The notes beneath the pieces were generated by a model, which ran no database searches, was not told the DNA's origin, and saw only the letters and a program-made list of their open reading frames with translations. Shown piece by piece: positions 3,001 through 48,295 of a DNA stretch of 64,000 bases; within the stretch, counting starts at the first letter, position 1; each line of letters opens with the position of its first letter. The stretch is taken from NCBI RefSeq assembly GCF_019649055.1, contig NW_026570235.1, positions 1,178,001 to 1,242,000 on the forward strand, written 5' to 3'. A program made the translations under genes and the position numbers. This DNA is from Paramacrobiotus metropolitanus (taxonomy: Eukaryota > Tardigrada > Eutardigrada > Parachela > Macrobiotidae).

Positions 3001-6000
3001 ACAGAGGCAGACCGGATACATGGATCGGTTATCGAAACTTACGAATCGGAAGAAATTCAATCCGAGCAACGTTAAAACAAGGTAAACGTAAGCATTGCAA
3101 CAATATGATAATATCTAATTCAATTCCTGTTTATGCTGTGTGATCTGCGGTACGTGTACAGATCACACAAACACGATTCATGGGAAAAAAGGACTTTACT
3201 GACCATGAAAGTTTTTTGGCTTTCCCATTAACACAGCAGATCAATACACGATGGATGACAAAATGTGGACTCGCATGACGATTCCTTTTACAGCGATCTG
3301 GTAATCATAATCAAAATTCAATATTCCGTTCGCGCTGAGTTTTTGTGGTTAGTTAACGCACATACACATGCAACCGATTTGCTGTCAAAAGCAGATAAGC
3401 AAATGATCACATAAAAACAATAATCAATGCAATGATTTATGGAGGGATGGATTGCAGATTTCAACGGCACATTTGACAATGGTAGTGTTTTTTACCCCCC
3501 ATCCACCAAGTATTAAATATCACGCTGCAGAATCATACCTGCATCGTAGATACCATGCCGAACGCTTGCAATCAAAAACGGTTACAACAAAATATTAATC
3601 GGTTCACTTCGAATACAAAATCATAAGCACATAAAATCCCGCAACGCACTGAATAAGAACTGAGAACACTTGACTGAGGATATGATCCGAGCCGTACTCG
3701 CATGAGCAGCCGTTTCTCGTACGGCACACACATGTATACACAATTACACATACATACAAACTCTGCCTACATTTCAATCGCGGAATTACTGCGACAGCGG
3801 ATGCGAGTACATAACCGGCAATTCTGTGTCTTAAGAATGCATTGATCTTAGCGCTGTGGCCGGAGAAAACCTGTGCATTTAACAAAGCGCTGGCCACAAT
3901 ATTTGCTATGTGTCTGTATATACGCACGGATCCATATTTGACCAAGTTAATCATTTCTGTCTGTCAGGCCTGAGACATACATCCACTGGTCAGTTAAGTA
4001 GACTTCTCTGGGCTGGCTTGAAGACCCGACTCCTCAAAACGCAACACAAAGAGCGATTCGGGAGCCGGTTTGAGCATACGGTAGCCACTGCCATTAAACA
4101 GCAAGGAAATGCGAAATCGACAGAGAACTATACAGAGAAGGGGTTGTTCTATGTTAACCAAGCGAGAGATGCCTTGAGTTGTATTTCCCTTGCACTTCAT
4201 AAAACGTGCGATAGCCACAATGGCGACCCTCCCATACCGTCAAGGTGTTAACCGCAAATACACAATGTAACGATGTGGAAACATTCGATTTCAATACCCC
4301 GGCGCTGACCGGTTAGCCGCAGGTCATCTGGTCATAAACTTCCTTTACATATTGGCAAACGCATGTGCGCTCAATACAATTTATTACCGTTGTATGCTGA
4401 GCGCACGTATCCTTACACTTAACTCCCACAATCAGATAAACCATAATATCAAGATTCAATAAAATTTGTACCTCCAACATCGTCCACGTACAGTATATTC
4501 TCGCTGCGCCTCTGCATATGCACTGATCATAAATGGGGATCGACCGCCTAATGCCCACTAGTAGGTGTACACCGAAGCGAAGCAAAATGCAATTATTACG
4601 CCGTTACACAGGCACCGGAAGTGTTTTATCTGGGTCAATATTCTGTGAAAATATTACAGCTATCTAGCCTCGTGTTGCAAAAGTTTTTGAATACCGTGAC
4701 TGTGTTATTTACCATTTGGACGATGGTCGCTATAAGCTGAAACACAATAAACTGCGTCGAGTCATTCAGTTGGATAACACAGTGAAGTATCGTCAAGTAA
4801 TGCATAGTAAGGGCTGCAAGGTTACACTGAAATTAGTTTATATGAGATAATAGGCTTTTGACCTTCTTTTTAAAATTTCTTTGCTTCAGTGGAAGCTTGC
4901 AGTGTGTGTGCCAATGTTAATTTAGCAGAGGCAATATTAATATAAATCACTGGCGGGAGTGTGCAGGTGAGAGATCTATACGACAAAAAAGAATCTTGTG
5001 TATGTGGAGACGACCTGGCACATAAAAGGCACGTGTTTAGGATACCGGTCGACGACGAGTTGTAGTTTGCTAAATCAACAACGATACGCTGTCCGAAACT
5101 GCTAGCAAACATAAAAACTTTTTCATATGTCGCTTGTTAAAAATTTCCATGAGGCTTTTAATGTGTACTAACATTTCTCGAGCTAACAGTATGCGCGCGG
5201 AAAACCGTGTGATGCACACAATCGAAGAAGCACCACACCATGGCTAGGTACAATTAAATCTACACCGTACAATTTTTATAAAATGTTCAAAAACTGATTT
5301 AAAATCTACCGTCTCGAGTACTCATAAACACTTCGAAAAACTATTACATGAATATTCAGCCACTTTTACGTGTGACCTTCGCACGACCTGTGTTGACAAG
5401 GAACGGGATCAAGTCGGCCTGCATATTTGCAATGCCCTTAAACGCTTACTATCCTCGAAAATTGCACAGTAGACTGAGTCGATAGCGTATTATGAACACA
5501 TTGAAAAGGTTTTCAGGAATAATATGCAAATAATTTTCAAATAGGTACATTCTTAAGAAAATGTGAAACTGCTACCGATCTAATACAGCGTGGGAAGTCA
5601 ATGTTTATTCGCAGTCGTTGATAGCTCATCTCACCAAAGGTATGCCCCGAGTCGTACCATTACCGGCACATTTCTCATCATAAAATTGTCTGCTGTGCCG
5701 CTTCTTTCTCTCCTTCATTTCTCGATAAATTCTGATGTTAGAATTTTATTCATGGTATCTAAAATCTATACGAGTACATTTTGCTGAAGCTACGTACCGT
5801 AATTCAAAGTTATCATGCAGCCCGTAGAAGTCTCACCCGTAAAATTAACAATGTGTAAATTGGATTTAAATTTTCCGAAGCACATGGTTACAGAAACACA
5901 TTATACTTAAAAATGAATAACAAACTAATTTTTCCGTAAAACAACACCGTTTTTCAAAGCTTCATTTACGCAAACTGATTAACTGTTCATGAAAGTTTTC

Positions 6001-9000
6001 TATTGCAATTACAAAACCTCCTGATTCGTAATCTGGATTCTGGACCACAAAGCGCTTAGCAATTGATAATCGATGAAAAAGTTATATTATTCTACGCCAG
6101 AGCCTGATCGGTTTTAGCATAAAATTTAAAAAGCAATATTTCTTTTCAAGCTGAACATCAACCAGTGCAATACAGTCATATCCTTTTACCTGCATAGGCA
6201 TGTGTAATTATGCAAACAGCATCTTGAATACTGCCCATCATAAAACCGTTAAAACTGTTTACTTTTGCTACTGCTGCTTACAGATGCGAAAGATGTTATT
6301 ACGAAGTACATTCATTTGTTGGGGATGTGTCAGACCTATCAGACCGCATTCCCCTCTACGAAGGGAAATGTTTGTACCGGAACACCCACCATTAGTGGAT
6401 CGGTGATGCCATCCAAATGGACAAAAGGATTGCTACGGCATGGTCAGCCTAATCGGACGGGTTGGCAGATGACTCTTTTCAAAAATGTGCGAAAGCGCCG
6501 TGTAAGCAATTATGAATTATCAATATATAAATTGTTTATCCGAGAAATGATATAAGGCTGTCAATTTGGACAACGTCCAGTGTACCAGAGGAAGTCCATT
6601 AAAAACTCCAGTATGCCAGCTCCACATGTTATCACAAACTACAGTACATAGCTTCTACATTGGCACCTTCTGTCGGCAACTGATGAGAATCCAACCGGAA
6701 ACAATTCGAAAACCATAACTTCAAAAACTCATAAATAATTATTCTTTTACGTTAAACGAAGCCTTTAACAAACTCCAAACTAATTTCGCACAAAAAAGAA
6801 GCCGCACGTAGAACCGAACACATTTAATAAACAGACAGACAATATAATCGTTATGCGTCGTCAGCGTTGACAATAACTTAAGCACATGCTTCCAATAAAT
6901 AAAAACCATAAAAATTATGTCGTATTTGTTTATATTAGTTCAATTCGTCAATAAAGCGACATGATCGCTCTGCTACTAGCACCATAGCGTTACTGCGTTG
7001 CTGGGGATGTTCATAAAAATGTATCCGAAGTCGACTCGCACCGTGAACAACCAAATATTACAGATACACGAATCTTGTTTTGCTCTTCGCACTCTGCAAG
7101 AATTATTGCGCTGTCTGTCAGAGAGTTCACGCCAAGTGACTTCTGGTCAAGTAATTGTTTCAAGTCATATATTTACTAGTTTTATAGCTGGCATCCGGCG
7201 CGGGGCCAGATAGATCTTCTACTACGTATAATAAGTTAAGATGCAGACGGGAATGTCTGTATCGCTAGCGGATCGCATTTCTTATCTTTGGTTAGATTCT
7301 GACAATCACTGAAATGTCCGTCTAAGTGGTAAACTAGCTGCAAGGGAATTAACTGTCTATCGCCTAGGAGGCCCAACTGAATTCATTTCATCATTTGTTT
7401 TCCAACACAAATTCTCATGATCTGGCGCGTTTGGGCATAATGTCAGCGCAAAAGGGAACCTTCAAACTTCTAGCAACTAATGAATGAAACCAAAGCACAT
7501 TTCTTGTTTTCTCGCCCGTCGCCCACTTTGTTTCACATAATTGTCTCTGTATTTACAATATAAGTGTACCCTTGGTAAAATTACTTCCTGAATGTTACAA
7601 ATATGTGCAATGCGGGGCAGCATCCTACCAGTGAAGTATATATATGTATACGGCAAATGTACATTTCGATGATACAAGGCCGCTCAATTGTTTCTTATCT
7701 CAATGAGTATGATAATTAAGTTAAGCAGGATTATTTGATTAACCCCATATTACTCTACCGATCTCCATTGGTTCATAAATACAAGATGGTGAATCAGTAA
7801 AACGTAAACATCGTCTAACATGAAATCTTCCACACAGCCTCAAGCTTCCATCTTCATAAATCGATTTTCAATACTTGCTAGTCCATAACAACCCGGCTTA
7901 TTTAAAGCACTTCCTTACTGTATGCACCAGTACCGTACCGGAAATGCACCGCTTTCGGTGTTGACCGCGAATAAAACAAAGTTCACCAGCAAATCACAAC
8001 ATCTACAGTTTAATGAACATAAAATGAGCATTTGCTCTCAAAAAATGTTCCCAAATGAGCCGATTAAAGCCGCATTTTCCTGTATTTTGTAAATCCTTTA
8101 AAGAGAAGTCACTCACCGCGTAAGAAATTCCAGTTCCTCACTTTCGCACGTGTGCATCAAACGGCAAAATATAGATTCCTAGAACAATTAAGGTTGTTAT
8201 CGACACTGGAGCAAAAAATGGAGCAAATAAGATGTCATACACACGAAAAATGAATATGAACAAGCAGGCTTATTTGACAGCACTACAGAAATGTTGCAGA
8301 GCACATTATGTTCCATGATGCAAGTGTACTGGTCATTGTCTCGTTATGCGTTCACGCAGTGGTCATTTATGACAAGTACTGCCACACTCTGGCAATCAAA
8401 TTGCAAAAACATAACTACAACAAACTTGCTCGATGCACGGCAGTGGCAGTGAAGAGAGCGAATTCATAAATTCATATTTCGCGGTCAAAGGAACGTTCAG
8501 GCAAAGATTTCAACTTGCGAACGCTACAATAAATGATTTGCTGGATAATGATTGTAGAGGCTATAATGAACTTGTCCTGCTACAAAATCGCATGATACAA
8601 TATGCGACTGAATCCTCCGGTGATTTTACATTCGGTTCTGTCGCCCCAACGACCATAAACTTCAAAGAAAATTTATGCCCACGCTCAGAATGCTGAATTA
8701 ACCGGCAGTATATGTATATTCGCACCTCCACCTTGATGGTATCTTTTATTAAGTACACCCGCACACAGAAAAAACGGAACATAATTTATCGACAGACTGG
8801 CAATTTTACTGCCTAATAAAAACATAATTACAAAGAGGTGGAAGAGTTTTCAGAAAAATAGTTCTCACGAAGTATACTTCGTACTCGTACCAGCCGTATC
8901 GCAGTTTATTTACCCACTTTTACCTCAGCAGTTAGCAGACAAATGACATATCATGGCAGCACAGCTCTATAAAAGCATATGCACGGTAGATTTTAACTGA

Positions 9001-38049: not shown

Positions 38050-41000
38050 TTAAAACAGTCCTTGCACCAAACCAGTTTCCGGATCCAAATCAATATCGAA
38101 AAAGGCTGGGCGCGTTGGAAGCCCCGGCATCTTGGTTATCTGAAAAATAAACTTCGGTAAGCTTAATCGAATACGAATACTCGTAATTTTGTAACATTCC
38201 ATTATGCAAAGACGAGTAATTTGGCGACATTGAGCTGTATGCTGTAAATTTGTAATTTCGTAGTTGCGTAATTGGAAACTTTGTAAAGTACTTACCGTGC
38301 CAACAAGTGCGCAAACAAATCCAGCACCGGCACTAGCCCAAACCTCTCGAATCGGCAGTACAAAATCTTTCACCACGCCTTTTTTCTCTGGCTCATGGGA
38401 GAATGACAAATGTGTTTTCGCCATACAGATAGGCAGTCGATCAAATCCGTTGCGCTTGACGCGGTTCAACTGTTCTTGCGCTTCTGGAGTAAAACTGATA
38501 TCCCGAGCACCATAAATTTTTTGAGCGATAGTTCGCATCTTCTCCTCCAGTGGTAGCTGCAAACAAAGTAATCCAAATTTTTATATTATTGTTTTCGTGC
38601 CAATGAAATTAGAAATCTATGGGTTTCGCTTAAACTGCTTAAATGAAATCAATAACACGTAGAATGCGATTACAATATTATAATACCGAAAGGTCATAAA
38701 GGAATTTGAACCGGCTGGCCGCTTCCGTCGCGCGTACCACCGATTTAGCCAGTTCTACGGCTCCCTTTCCGCCGTCGGCCCAATGGGAACAGATAACTGC
38801 ATCGTAAGCGCCAGCTTCTTTGGACATTTGCTGAACCAGATCCAGTTCCGCCTGAGTGTCGGTACTATAATTACAATTTCCACATTATTCATTTTTTTAC
38901 AAGTGTATTAACTATAAGTCGCGTATGCACTAGTGCTACGTACTGGAAGCTGTTTATGGCAACCACCACGGGCAAGCCAAATTTCTGGGCGTTTTCAATG
39001 TGTTTGCCCAGATTAGCAAATCCATTGCGGACTAGTTCGATGTTTTCTTGAATATACTCATTGGGTAACGGTGTGCCGGCTGTTACTTTTGGCCCACCAC
39101 CGTGCATTTTCAGCGCTCGGATGGTGGCCACCAGTACTGCGGCATCGGGTACGAGGTTAGAGTATCGGCATTTGATGTCGCAGAATTTTTCCATGCCAAT
39201 ATCGGAACCAAACCCGGCTTCGGTCACTATAAAAATTTTAAACTGAGCCGGTAAAAACGTTTAATTTCGAAGGACGATAGTCTATGAACACTTTGAGATA
39301 ATGGAAAAATAAAAGACTGAGCCAAATTTTTACAATTCAGCAATACCTACGCTCGACATAATTCCAACCCAAAGCAATTATAAATTGTATTACGTAAAAA
39401 CTCATGTGCAAGAATTATATTCTCTTTCACTCCGTCACTTACCAACGAAACCATCTTGTCCTACAAGTTTCAGGGCAATTAAATCGGCGACAATACTGGA
39501 ATTTCCATGGGCAATGTTAGCAAACGGTCCCGCGTGAACAAATACTGGTGTTCCCTACGTTCAGCAACAATTAAACCACACTATGCCGCACGGATACAGT
39601 TCAGAGTTACTTAATTAACCTAAGAGCCATTAACTAGGAACTAGCTATTACAAAAACATTTTCACATACCAACACAAAGTAAAAAAGAGAGAAATCTGTC
39701 GTCAAAATACAGTATGAACTTACTTCGAGAGTTTGCATAATGTTGGGACGAATCGCATCCTTCATCAAAACTGTCAGAGCGCCAGTTATACCCTAGGAAA
39801 CAATCTCATCGTGAAATCAGGCACGGGAAATACGTATAAAACATAATAATATTTTTATGTTTAATACAATAACATAAAAATACTAGGAAAGTGCACTCGC
39901 TTCTGGCGGGCACTGCATGACCGAAGCACAGCAGTAAATTCACAAATATTTTCATGTACTCAGTAGTAAAAACTGGCAGAAATAAGACTGTTGCGATTAT
40001 GAAGTACGTATGTAGAGTAAAATCATGTAACCGGTGAGGCCTCCCAGATAATATAATATGCGGTGATAATATAATCTTTTATATTATAAAAGAAATTACT
40101 GACTATAGCTTTCATACTTACTAAATCGTCAGCCGTCACCGGCACACCACTCTTGCTGCTGGCAACGACCATCTTCCCAAACTTTTCCCGCATATCGGCA
40201 ACAGATGTAGCCAAAGCCAGCACGGCCATGATCTCACTGGATACTGTGATATCGAATTGTGTCTGGAAGTTAGGCCAATATGACTTACATACGCGGGTCC
40301 AAAAGTTACCAACACTAAAGGTGCACGAATTGTTCCAGAATTCCTGAAATGACTAACCTGCCGCGGTGGTATTTGAGGTTTTTCCTTGAAAACAGACTGG
40401 CCAATCGTGATTTCGCGGAGGAACTGGTCATTTGTATCCATAACTGGGGGCAATTTAACCAGTTCCAATTTTTACTGTGAATACTGGCGTTATTAAGTAA
40501 TCAAAGGCATACCGCGGTTCCATGAAATTGTGGCCGGATCAATATCTAAGCGAACAAATTTGCCCACTTCTTCCGGGGTCAGCGCATCGGGATCGGTTTT
40601 ATCGATACCCAGTCGCTAGAAAAGAAATTTATCAAACTTATCCGGCATAGAAAATAAAGTTAAGGAAAAAGCTACCTTAAGTCTGCGAATCTGGATGGGA
40701 GCGAAGGTTTTGCTTCCGTCTTTGGCAGCGGGAACCAGCCGACGGAATAACGCGTCGTTCTTTTGGGTGCCTTCGTGCAAAATACGGGCATCAATGGCAG
40801 CTGCCAGAAGGTTGTTTGCAGCAGTAATGGCATGGATGTCGCCGGTCAAGTGTAGGTTAAATTCCTCCATGGGGATAACCTGGGAATATCCTCCGCCAGC
40901 AGCACCACCTTAGCACAAACGTTAACAAAATTTATAAGAATTGTTTATGTAGACTTGTATTTCTATAAACCGGATGCATTGTACCATAAAAGTGCTTTTC

Positions 41001-43298
41001 GAACTTGCAAACATTGCAGTTGCTCAGTTTGCTGTGACTGCTTGCAGCTATCGAATTGCTTATAAAGATTCCGAAATCCAAAAAAATTACCGAAAGATAA
41101 GCTTGCAACTCTACCTTTTATTCCAAATGTTGGGCCTTGTGATGGCTGTCGTACGCAGGCAAAAACGGCTTTCTTCAAATGCGCACCCAGAGCCTGGGCT
41201 AAGCCGATAGTTGTCGTACTCTTTCCTTCTCCAAGAGGAGTCGGAGTGATGCTGTAAAAATACGACAGCTTCACATATACGGATAAAAAAATTTGATGCA
41301 TTAGATATGAAAACTAGTCCGAAGATTTTATATCTTTAAATCGTACCCAGTTACGACGACGTATTTCCCGTCTGGCTTGTTTTTCAATCGCTGGTACGTT
41401 TCCAGTGTGACCTTTCCCTTAGTTTTGCCGTATGGTTCAATCTCGTCCGTTAGAATGCCCACTTCCTGTGCCAAAACAGCGACATCTTTGGGCGTTTGGG
41501 AACGTGCGGCTTCGATATCACTGAAATTGTTTTGAAAGTTAGCTGCGTGATCCAGTCTCTAGATTTAGCAGATTTATTAACAACTCTACCGTCAAACCTT
41601 GCCGATCTAAAGGGTCCAGTTTTTAAAACGTTAGAAAAAATCATTTTGTTTGTTTACCTGGGTACAGGGCGTTTCAGGTCCAATTTCAGTGGTTTTACTT
41701 TCCAGATCGGCTCCTAAATTGCGTTTGATTGAACAAATACCTGAACTGTTGGTGTGTCACCAGAGAAATGTCAAGAATCAACGTATGCACTCAAACAAAC
41801 CTGTTCGGCTTTGAAAGCTTTCTGAGCGGCTTCCACGGTGTTCTCCATCAACATGCTGACAGTCATAGGGCCAACTCCGCCTAATTTTCAACAGAAAAAA
41901 ATCCATCCTAGTTCTGCATTACGGAAACCGTGAAAAGCATAATGTATAAGTTATAACAGCATGCAAACCTGGGACGGGGGTAATCCACGAAGCCCGCTGC
42001 TTTGCAGCCTCGAAGTCCACATCTCCCACCAGGCGACGCCCATTTGGTGCTTTTGAATCTACAGGTACATCCGTACATGCAATGATCTAGCTTACAAAAT
42101 AATTGCATTTTCATTTAACATGTAAATTTATTCTTTCGGTTACCTTCAACAGAATTAATTCCACAGTCAATCACCACTGCACCTTCTTTAATCCAGTCTC
42201 CTTTGACAAAATTGGCTTTTCCAATCGCCACCACAAGAATGTCTGCGGTTTTCACCTGGAAGCCACGAATGGAAAAGAATTTGCTATGATCAGTTAACGT
42301 TGCTACCCAGTAGCTATACATGGATTTGTCGCAGCAGTACCACTTACAATGTCTTGCACGTTTTTGGTTTTTGAATGACAAACAATGGTTGTTGCATGAT
42401 TCCATAACAGCACTTCCGACATCGGCGCGCCGACAATTTTGCTCCGTCCCAAAACTACGGCAATCGCTCCTTCCAGTTTTACACGGCACGGATTTCCTTA
42501 GTTTCCATTAGCATAGCATATCAATCATCACAATATAGCAAATATATCAATTTTAATTTCGTAACAAGTACTGACTTCGAAAAATCCCTAAACGATACTT
42601 TATGTGCAGTAGTGAAACCGGTTTGGCCAATCAATTCCAGAGTTGTCCATAAGGAGTGCACAATAAAATATCAGTGGTTCACTTATGTAGCCGAATGCAA
42701 CCTACTATAGTGGTAAAAGGCGGTCAGCATGCAACGATTTATATGCCCGGGCGAAGTAGATATATGCATATGATAGAAGTTCGCATAATAAAGAACATAA
42801 TTTACCCATCGACATCCTTTAAAGGCGAAATACTTCCTGTTGCTTTTTCGGTGTCAATTGAATCTTTCGAATCAAGTGGTTAATATGCATGGACGTATCA
42901 AAAAATACAAACGTATTCAAGTAAGACTGCATAAATTTCCACGCACTGCAAATGGCTAATCCAGGCGTGCATCCTTGCTCTTTCAAAGCGGAAACCGTGG
43001 TAGCCACATGTTGCTGCGTCTCCCTTACAAATTTATATATGTTAATTGCAATATGTTTTGTTTTTAAAAATTTATTTAGTTGAAATTGTTTGTTCGGACA
43101 CTTCAAAACAATATCAGAATCACATAAAACCTCACATATATAGCGCTGCGCATTGTTATTCCTCGTTATGATGTGAGTTAAACTACTTTTGCTGCATGCC
43201 AGATTGCCAGTGCTGCAATCTTGCTTATGCTCTAAATCCATCACTCACTTCGCGATGCTTTTTCCATCCAGAATCTGGCCAAATGTAGTGCCAACCAT
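38050..43298 (-). CDS. MTHFD1: C-1-tetrahydrofolate synthase, cytosolic (MTHFD1-type)
   Basis: Interconverts 5,10-methylene-, methenyl- and 10-formyl-THF and ligates formate to THF. Exons in transcript order: 43,298-43,249; 43,023-42,947; a conserved block 42,879-42,806; degraded piece about 42,675-42,613; about 42,496-42,348; 42,255-42,144; 42,058-41,969; 41,880-41,801; 41,713-41,658; 41,520-41,347; 41,251-41,115; 40,908-40,676; 40,615-40,513; 40,443-40,358; 40,262-40,122; 39,792-39,724; 39,554-39,443; 39,226-38,944; 38,864-38,687; 38,556-38,296; 38,139-38,050. Dehydrogenase marks: [12 protein letters not shown] and [14 protein letters not shown]. Synthetase marks: P-loop [50 protein letters not shown]-terminus [19 protein letters not shown]. 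All phases close from 42,255 to the stop. The N-terminal third is odd: after GCTPGLAI about 60 residues, including the segment with the catalytic lysine, are absent, and the [14 protein letters not shown] block changes frame. Either the dehydrogenase is decaying or the assembly is wrong there. Confidence 0.9.
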
Positions 43299-45088: not shown

Positions 45089-46161
45089 ATGGCCCAGCGT
45101 CTCACCCTTCGCCGTCGCCTTCCTTACAGCACCGCATCCAACAAACGGAAGATGTACGTCCATAGGGTTCTCGCGAGAGGCCGCGGTACTTGCTTTGCAC
45201 GATGGAAAGCGTTTTAATTATTGTAGAGTCAAAACTCCTGGAGGACGATTGGTGTATATCTACCAGAAGAAACTTGCCACACCAGCAAGATGTGGCGACT
45301 GCAAACGGGATCTCCCTGGTGTAAGTGCTGTTGTAGCATTAATAATTAGTTTGTACTGTAAGTGTAGTTATTCATGTTATTAATTTGTTATTATTTTGTC
45401 ATTTTTGTGATGACAGTACTTAATAATACATGTTTTATGGTTTTGTAAAAATGCAGATACTGTGGTTAGTGATGCCACAAATTTGTTATTTGTGATGACA
45501 ATACTTAATTATACATACTTCGCTTGGCCCATTATTTTAATCAGTACCGCTTTAGGGATCAATATATTAATCACTTTTACTGCATAGATGCAGTGCTGGT
45601 CTTACTGCATAGATTGCACACTGATAAGCTGCGTAGGCTGCATAGACTGAATGGTAATGCATATTGCATAGACTGCATTTCAGTCAGCCGTGGTTGTTCA
45701 TGTAGCCGCCCGCCACAGAGGCTCTCAGTTCGGTAAAGTGATTAATATATTGATCCCTAAAGTGGTACTGATTGAAATAATGGGCAAGGCGAAGTATGTT
45801 TTATGGTTCTGTAAAATGCAGATTTAATTGTTCGCTAGCGGGAAATTCGAGATTTCATCACGTATTGGATATTTATTTTGTTCAGGTTATCCGCGCTCGC
45901 CCGAGGAAGTTGCATTCAGTTAGCAAGCGTCTGAAGCACGTCACTCGCAGTTACGGAGGTTCCCGATGCCATAGCTGTGTTCGTCAAAGGTAACTTAACA
46001 ACTGACTAGTTAACAGAAAACCTCAGTTTTTGCTGTGTGACACTTCGAGGGTCTTTTTTTGATGTGCCTTAATTTGCAGGATTGTTCGAGCGTTTTTAAT
46101 AGAAGAACAGAAGATCGTACAACGAGTCCTGAAAGCCAAGGAAACTGGAACAAAAAAATAG
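45089..46161 (+). CDS. RpL34: Large-subunit ribosomal protein eL34 (RPL34)
   Basis: Structural protein of the 60S ribosomal subunit. Exons 45,089-45,153, 45,227-45,320, 45,886-45,989 and 46,080-46,161 join with matching phases to 114 aa; the human protein has 117. Landmarks in order: start MAQRLTLRRRLPYSTASNK, then TPGGRLVYIYQKK, zinc-ribbon cysteines CGDC and CHSC (two CxxC pairs), RSYGGSRCHSC, and the tail RAFLIEEQKIVQRVLKAK. Intron 1 is 73 bp with a GTACGT donor; intron 2 is 565 bp and carries a MITE. The exons have no frame break. The ATG is chosen because it gives the universally conserved N-terminus of the family. No terminal oligopyrimidine start site can be placed with certainty. Confidence 0.97.
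45517..45795. mobile_element. MITE in eL34 intron 2
   Basis: A 279 bp element with terminal inverted repeats of about 65 bp (left arm from 45,517 to about 45,580; right arm 45,733-45,795) that differ at only about five positions. Ends read ACTTCGC and GCGAAGT, flanked on both sides by AT. The interior is non-coding and rich in TGCATAGA-like words. The flanking intron sequence exists twice: the copy at about 45,387-45,464 reads TACATGTTTTATGG without the insert, while the second copy is split by the element exactly between TACAT and GTTTTATGG. This gives a built-in empty site and sets the insertion point and a 2 bp AT duplication. It fits a non-autonomous DNA transposon; the superfamily is unknown. 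Confidence 0.8.
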
Positions 46162-46619: not shown

Positions 46620-48295
46620 TTAATTGACCACGTGCTCAAGAATTCCTTGACGGATAAGATCTTCGCATTCCATTAATGGCAGGACGTGCCGAGTGTTCTT
46701 GGTCAACTGGATGCAGCTTCCATCTTCCAGTTGATATTCCCCGAAGTCTTTGAGAACTCTCACCTGCACATAAGGTCATAAAAGTATCACCGTATTATTT
46801 TGGTTTTAAACAAAAGTAATTTGTATGACATTACAAAAATACAAACCATGAAAAAAGCACGTTGCTAACTTGCTACCGGCTGCATTAACGTTTGATGCAC
46901 TGTACAGTACAGAGTACAGACCACACAGTAAATTCTTACACTGTTTCCTTTTTTTCTTTCTAGATATTGTATTATGTATAAATTAGGTATAACCTTTAAA
47001 CCGTCTAATATTACCAAATGCGACTGACAAATAAAAATAATTATAACCCTTCTAACTTATGTACCGTAAAACGGACGTAATGATTGCAGCCAATAAAGAA
47101 TAGTTTCATACGTGAAAATAGTATGAGTGAACTCATGAAGGCACTGTACTATCTTTATGGCACTATGGTGAAATATGTAATTGCGACTTGATTACTGTTC
47201 AGTGACTTTTCTTTACAACACCAGCAGAAGCAATAAGATTAGGATAAAAAACAAATGTAACATGTTTAATCAAAGATTTAAAGTTCTTTATACTTATTAT
47301 AAAGATATGAGATTTGTAAATGAAAATTATCTACGTACGTGAATGTAGAGGTCTTGTGGTGGCTTTTGATGAGCTGGTAAATTAAGTCCGCTGTTATCTT
47401 GCATAAAACCAGTAAGCAATGTGTTGTAGCTGTTGAACCATTCCACCTCCTTCTCCGACAGCGCGGCCCGCACATCTCGCGGAAGAATACCTCCGAACGA
47501 CCAGCGTAAATTTCGCAGCCGTTCTAGTCGATTATAATGGTACGCAATCAAACAGCGCAGGTTGCGTTCCTTCGCGAGATGACGAAAACTGATGGCATTC
47601 TTCAGGTCTTCTGCAGCTTTATCTTGAGATGCTGCTAAAAGGCTTTCTCGACGTCCACTAAAATTTCAATTTTGTATTGTCCATAATGATCAACGTGTAG
47701 ACCCAAGATTTGGTAATAAAAAAGTTTTAACTTTTATGTGTGTGTTAACAGGTTACCTGTCTTCGACATTGTTTTCGTGAATAGTGGCGATTTCCTCGCA
47801 AATCAGTCTAACCGCTTCTGCCTGTTAAAATTTTCAGCATCAAAGTTGCAGCCTTGCAGGCAATTTCATGAACGTAAGTTAAAGTGTGCAGAATAAAGCT
47901 GGAAAGCTCGTAAGCATCGTTTATCAGACTCAGAGTAAACAAACAAGACTCCAATTCCATAATGCGGATGAATCCGTATTTGTGTTGATCATCTTAAAAC
48001 TGATCCTTATGAAGCTATAATTCTTTTTTAATTTCTTATGGATCTTACTTCTTACATAGAGAATTCTTACGGTTTTATACCCTTAATTCTTGGAGATACG
48101 TAAATAATTAACTCAAAGAACCAACTCTTTCTAGAGAAACAATTATCTGTGAGGTTCTAAACTGAATTAAAATTACAACGAAGCTTTAAGGTAAGCAATC
48201 TTCGCTAAATAAAAACTTACATTATAAGGAGGGATGGTTTCGTCTGGTGCGCGAGCCAAACTGCGTATCAGGTCTTCTGCTCGACGGCAAAACAT
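46620..48295 (-). CDS. GINS1: DNA replication complex GINS protein Psf1
   Basis: Subunit of the GINS tetramer (Sld5-Psf1-Psf2-Psf3), which joins Cdc45 and Mcm2-7 in the replicative helicase. Exons in transcript order: 48,295-48,221, 47,821-47,757, 47,657-47,339 and 46,763-46,620. They join in phase to 200 aa; human GINS1 has 196. Landmarks: N-terminus MFCRRAEDLIRSLARAP, the helical block RLERLRNLRWSFGGILP, EKEVEWFNSYNTLLTGFM, then the B-domain linker KPPQDLYIHVRVLKDFGEYQ and the end LIRQGILEHVVN. The start is the ATG giving the conserved MFC beginning. Introns are 399, 99 and 575 bp; the 575 bp one holds nothing I recognise. No frame break or missing residue block is seen, so it looks functional. 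It faces eL34 tail to tail and shares a 432 bp spacer with the next gene. Confidence 0.96.

Follow-up and report, generated by a model that had tools for sequence, protein, structure and literature searches.

Which enzyme would be encoded by a C1-THF synthase gene that lacks the catalytic segment of its dehydrogenase/cyclohydrolase domain, and which genes would then supply the lost activities? The question is raised by a gene in a stretch of 64,000 nucleotides of the tardigrade Paramacrobiotus metropolitanus (NW_026570235.1; C15:1178001-1242000), which we refer to as the window. A preliminary description of this DNA had proposed a formate-THF ligase with a dead dehydrogenase. We examined the locus in detail and searched the whole genome (169.8 Mb, 533 contigs). 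With a probability of about 65% we consider the window gene to be a monofunctional ligase, the lost activities being supplied by two separate genes on contigs C4 and C47.

The window gene and its predicted product

The C1-THF synthase gene (MTHFD1 type) is located at 43298-38050 on the minus strand of the window. Its features are listed below in window coordinates; protein letters of longer stretches are not shown.

43249..43298, minus strand: exon 1, 17 residues, start codon kept, donor gtgagt
42947..43023, minus strand: exon 2, 24 residues, clean frame, donor GCA/GTGCGT at 42946, phase 1
42497..42946, minus strand: damaged segment in the place of ancestral exons 3-6, best read now as a single intron
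42805..42879, minus strand: exon 5 remnant, 25 residues in an open frame, good donor, no adjoining acceptor, stop directly upstream
42618..42681, minus strand: exon 6 remnant, 12 residues followed by LELIGQTG, stop at its start and internal frame change
42348..42496, minus strand: exon 7, where the NADP-binding half begins (GRSKIVGAP), acceptor CTAAG/GA, phase 1 as in the C4 gene
42255-42144, 42058-41969 and 41880-41801, minus strand: exons 8-10, remainder of the NADP-binding half, clean
38050..41713, minus strand: linker and formate-THF ligase domain, 13 exons, uninterrupted, TAA at the end

Exons 1 and 2 were both found clean on the minus strand and give the normal start that had been reported. 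By eye the N-terminus of the protein (12 residues) is the start of the domain itself and no presequence is visible. With exon 2 joined to exon 7, the model comprises 19 exons that encode 826 residues; every intron is GT-AG, and the reading frame shows neither internal stops nor errors up to its final stop codon. The predicted product matches PF01268 with 833.8 bits over profile positions 2-556 of 556 and PF02882 with 184.2 bits over positions 30-159 of 160, the first 29 positions being missing. No match to PF00763 was obtained at E 0.001. Gene model and domain matches agree that the synthetase half and the remainder of the dehydrogenase carry no damage, and the combination of a full PF01268, most of PF02882 and no PF00763 match fits the ligase with a dead dehydrogenase that had been proposed. 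Among PDB chains the NADP-binding half is closest to the DC domain of MTHFD1. For the formate-THF ligase family we obtained 8 exon matches genome-wide, all of them on C15 inside the window and thus representing the one FTHFS locus found.

PMC3368264 names Tyr52, Lys56, Gln100, Leu101, Asp125, Gly273 and Gly276 as key residues for substrate binding and catalysis. Five of these seven (Tyr52, Lys56, Gln100, Leu101 and Asp125) are lost from the window gene; Gly273 and Gly276 remain. In PMC9173628 the contribution of Lys56 to the dehydrogenase step is described as chiefly one of binding, and a single site is said to serve both activities. With five key residues gone, the dehydrogenase and the cyclohydrolase should both be lost, whichever role Lys56 plays.

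Two neighbouring features were also recorded. An inverted repeat (45508-45577 / 45735-45804) has 70-nt arms that are 91% complementary and 157 nt apart; it is a foldback or MITE-like insertion and lies within what by eye looks like an intron of a ribosomal protein L34 gene. Exons at 46620-47665 on the minus strand resemble, by eye, the GINS complex subunit PSF1, to which we presumptively assign them. At the level of the whole genome, the assembly gave no COX1 match and thus offered no mitochondrial contig for placing the species. Nematode cuticle collagen (PF01484) and cuticle protein (PF00379) gave no match either, but these two profiles were equally silent in the control genomes, so this negative carries little weight. 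A lipocalin-family hit proved to resemble ordinary fatty-acid-binding proteins, which, together with the fused C1-THF synthase gene as an opisthokont trait, suggests an animal.

The segment between exons 2 and 7

As references for the damaged segment we used the C4 paralogue, described below, and human MTHFD1. Their exons were aligned to 42946-42497 with tolerance for frameshifts and the scores were compared with those of 60 dinucleotide shuffles. Exon 5 scored 72 (C4) and 79 (human) with shuffle maxima of 28 and 29, and exon 6 scored 39 and 44 with maxima of 34 and 35; in neither case did any of the 60 shuffles reach the observed value. Exons 3 and 4 were undetectable in this segment: they scored 18 and 17 for C4 and 23 and 18 for human, and 23 to 58 of the 60 shuffles did equally well. 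Searching the 64 kb window for both exons with tblastn returned nothing better than E 0.30. In searches of the whole genome with PF00763 and the C4 protein, catalytic-domain residues were convincingly present on C4 and C47 only. A candidate exon copy on C309 (E 0.33, three stops) was taken as chance, as were those on C56 (twice), C160, C97 and C38 (E 0.38 to 3.98). The preliminary description had considered that the genome might hold the missing exon or separate MTHFD2- or MTHFD1-like genes; the separate genes exist, and the missing exon at the window locus was not found.

The reported anatomy of the damage was reproduced in every particular. About 70 bases had been given for a place where the family has about 60 residues; we measured 67 bases between exon 2 and the PLDS block, and in human MTHFD1 61 residues lie between the corresponding blocks (LAI up to residue 40, PLD from 102). 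The active-site segment with the Tyr/Lys motif (YxxxK) is indeed not encoded, as exons 3-4 are undetectable and Tyr52 and Lys56 fall in the missing part. The in-frame stop directly before PLDS is a TAA with no adjoining AG. The frame changes between CTPYGQ and LELIGQTG, a TGA precedes TTDILLCTP, and the 5' part of the exon 6 remnant is not recognisable. The equivalent of the C4 acceptor of exon 7 is also absent, the nearest AG being 12 nt upstream with the phase unchanged. Overall, the equivalents of human residues ~41-160 are absent from the window gene.

We then considered which splicing could bridge the segment. Both sides of an exon 2-7 junction are in phase 1, which keeps the frame; by chance alone such agreement occurs one time in three. 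Only 1 of 83 single GT-AG introns across the segment was open and in frame, namely the one joining exon 2 to exon 7. Its donor scored 4.48 and its acceptor 2.23, each above approximately 7 of the 26 accepted introns in a leave-one-out comparison (9 from C4 and 17 from the window gene). Between 38 and 47 kb, 14% of the GTs and 39% of the AGs match or beat the proposed donor and acceptor, respectively. The identical GTGCGT donor is found at exon 7 of C4. These splice sites appear plausible and unremarkable, short of proof.

Longer paths were enumerated with exon 2 as the first of at most four exons, and any partial path that contained a stop was dropped before the count. Exon 7 was reached by 1625 paths and 152 of these were open: 1 with two exons, 28 with three and 123 with four. 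Compared with C4 and human, 43 of the 152 outscored the exon 2-7 path, partly through pieces of exon 5. A path restoring exon 3 was rejected, the best score being 25 (C4) and 22 (human) against exon 3 self-scores of 189 and 190. A YxxxK string (YLNTK or YFAFK) occurred in 99 of the 152 open paths and SxxYxxxK in 11. As YxxxK is this common in open paths that lack exon 3, the motif alone is not diagnostic here.

Separate dehydrogenase/cyclohydrolase genes

Clear dehydrogenase/cyclohydrolase sequence was found at three loci genome-wide, the window gene and the following two:

C4:565090-567037, plus strand: C4 gene, 300 aa, intact frame, MTHFD1-type dehydrogenase/cyclohydrolase
C47:408500-418400 (L020), about 4003-6149: C47 gene, MTHFD2-type, best match 6jib with E 1.5e-105

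The C4 protein covers positions 1-115 of 115 of PF00763 and 2-158 of 160 of PF02882. Its best match is the MTHFD1 DC domain 1a4i (E 1.2e-109), all seven key residues are present, and the frame closes with a stop at the expected start of the linker. No convincing tblastn match to the ligase was obtained in the surrounding 9.9 kb. A rescue of the ligase on C4 and a decay of C4 itself were both rejected, given the intact frame and no convincing ligase match nearby. From its domains, its key residues and the missing ligase, C4 looks like an MTHFD1-type dehydrogenase/cyclohydrolase, and because no presequence was seen by eye it is probably cytosolic. Upstream of the C4 start there is an in-frame Met (L019 3990-4090) that would add ~23 residues, mostly hydrophobic and including cysteine; an alternative and possibly targeted form of C4 could start there.

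In C47 the position of MTHFD1 Ser197 is taken by Arg and that of human Leu101 by Phe, the latter change leaving six of the seven key residues. MTHFD2 itself has Leu at the Leu101 position, and it has Ala at that of human Cys147, which is Cys in C47. The two genes are candidates for the exchange between methylene-THF and formyl-THF, which the earlier reading of the window had expected to fall to another enzyme.

To place the genes we built a tree of six sequences (window gene, C4, human MTHFD1, C47, MTHFD2 and 7qei) from a MAFFT alignment. The first three of these group together and the last three lie outside; the support of 100/100 applies to this three-member clade as a whole and the tree gives no order inside it. 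The branch of the window gene is 0.74 compared to 0.38 and 0.53 for the other two, and since MAFFT misplaced its exon 2-7 junction we draw nothing from that length. Across exons 7-10 the window gene and C4 share 90 of 133 residues, the window gene and human 85, and C4 and human 83. Three of four comparable intron positions agree exactly between the window gene and C4, and the fourth is in phase and one codon off. The residue identities make a lineage-specific duplication that gave rise to the window gene and C4 likely. The codons differ at 57 of the 90 residues that are identical between the two in exons 7-10, which indicates that the duplication was not recent.

Age, interpretation and relation to known enzymes

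The exon 5 remnant is identical to human at 15 of 25 residues, and the retained exons range from 16 of 34 to 35 of 51. At codon positions 1, 2 and 3 it differs from C4 at 9, 5 and 12 sites in 25 codons; the corresponding counts are 15, 8 and 22 in 45 codons for exon 7, 10, 7 and 29 in 37 codons for exon 8 and 11, 10 and 34 in 51 codons for exons 9-10. Positions 1 and 2 combined give 14 of 50 for exon 5 and 61 of 266 for the retained exons, a slight excess at most. As exon 5 is hardly more diverged than the retained exons, its decay would be recent relative to the duplication, or patchy. The same conservation could reflect a very recent loss or a problem with the assembly or the allele. It speaks more than anything else against a loss of long standing, and because of it we kept two rival explanations.

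According to the first, exons 3-6 are present at the true locus and were replaced in the assembly by a collapsed, error-filled stretch of ~450 bases. All of the damage falls within one unbroken segment, 42946-42497, flanked on each side by clean coding sequence, and exon 5 within it is still well conserved, as such a fault might produce. However, a single collapse leaves one clean junction and here there are several separate lesions: exons 3 and 4 are absent, exon 5 lost its acceptor, exon 6 has a stop and a frame change and the exon 7 acceptor is displaced. The locus also lies 1.22 Mb into a contig of 1.76 Mb, the rest of the gene, with its 17 other introns, is free of errors, and no second copy or haplotig of the segment was found in the assembly. 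We therefore regard an assembly fault as unlikely.

The second rival is a segregating broken allele: a recent null of the dehydrogenase half would be carried by the individual or line that was sequenced, other alleles being intact. The little-diverged exon 5 remnant makes the loss look recent, and no alternative allele of the segment is present in the assembly, though it may have been purged. Against this, several lesions in exon 6 together with the traceless exons 3-4 exceed one new mutation, and we rate this explanation as decidedly improbable. It is hardly credible that the protein starts downstream of the damage (e.g. at a Met in exon 7) from another promoter with exons 1-2 as relics: the exon 2-7 acceptor is unremarkable and the ligase is free-standing in bacteria (PDB matches), which means that it needs no dehydrogenase domain, but exons 1-2 still have a start codon, an open frame and their splice sites, and they match human at 16 of 34 residues compared to 15 of 35 for their C4 counterparts.

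The monofunctional ligase that we prefer would be a former trifunctional C1-THF synthase turned into a single-activity formate-THF ligase. The ancestral exons 3-6 of the dehydrogenase/cyclohydrolase domain would have been deleted or have decayed, exon 2 would be spliced straight onto exon 7, and the loss would be fixed in the species. Translation of such a transcript would give the first ~42 residues, followed by the NADP-binding half and the entire ligase, with no catalytic site for the dehydrogenase and cyclohydrolase reactions. Methylene-THF dehydrogenase and methenyl-THF cyclohydrolase would be provided by the MTHFD1-type C4 enzyme, probably in the cytosol and in place of the window gene, and by the MTHFD2-type C47 enzyme.

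Among trifunctional C1-THF synthases, known as MTHFD1, ADE3 or pug, the window gene finds its likeness in domain order, in the matching start in exons 1-2, in the whole ligase and in the NADP-binding half, and differs from them in having neither the PF00763 catalytic domain nor five of the seven key residues. C4 has a catalytic and an NADP-binding domain and no ligase, as have FolD and MTHFD2, and would be expected to work as they do. It groups with MTHFD1 and not with MTHFD2 (100/100), and at human position 197 it has retained the Ser that is replaced by Arg in MTHFD2. C4 thus appears to be a fragment of the fusion gene rather than an ancestral free-standing enzyme.

PMC11064299 places the FolD-FTHFS fusion in a common ancestor of Opisthokonta and describes opisthokonts as having C1-THF synthase as a fused, trifunctional enzyme and no distinct FTHFS locus. 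MTHFD1L is presented in PMC11064299 and PMC9796130 as derived from MTHFD1 and monofunctional, its FolD region having diverged, and the former describes it as specific to Vertebrata. Like MTHFD1L, the window gene is derived from MTHFD1, with an intact ligase and a dehydrogenase/cyclohydrolase region without catalytic residues, a likeness that here concerns anatomy alone. MTHFD1L is an additional mitochondrial paralogue beside MTHFD1, whereas the window gene is the only ligase locus found; and while the FolD region of MTHFD1L is diverged yet detectable, the catalytic half of the window gene is deleted and no presequence is seen by eye. In the titles and abstract openings of the open-licence literature, none of the matches listed described an animal MTHFD1 without the catalytic domain, vertebrate MTHFD1L apart.

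We lean slightly towards the view that the opisthokont FolD-FTHFS fusion was undone in this lineage: a part of it would have been duplicated as the free-standing C4, after which the fused copy would have lost its catalytic half and become the only ligase, with that single activity. Steps formerly joined in one protein would now depend on two independently regulated genes. The window gene would then be a parallel to vertebrate MTHFD1L. A fusion kept as a ligase only, with the lost domain present as a separate gene, would be a natural experiment on the purpose of the fusion, be it channelling, stoichiometry or NADPH balance.
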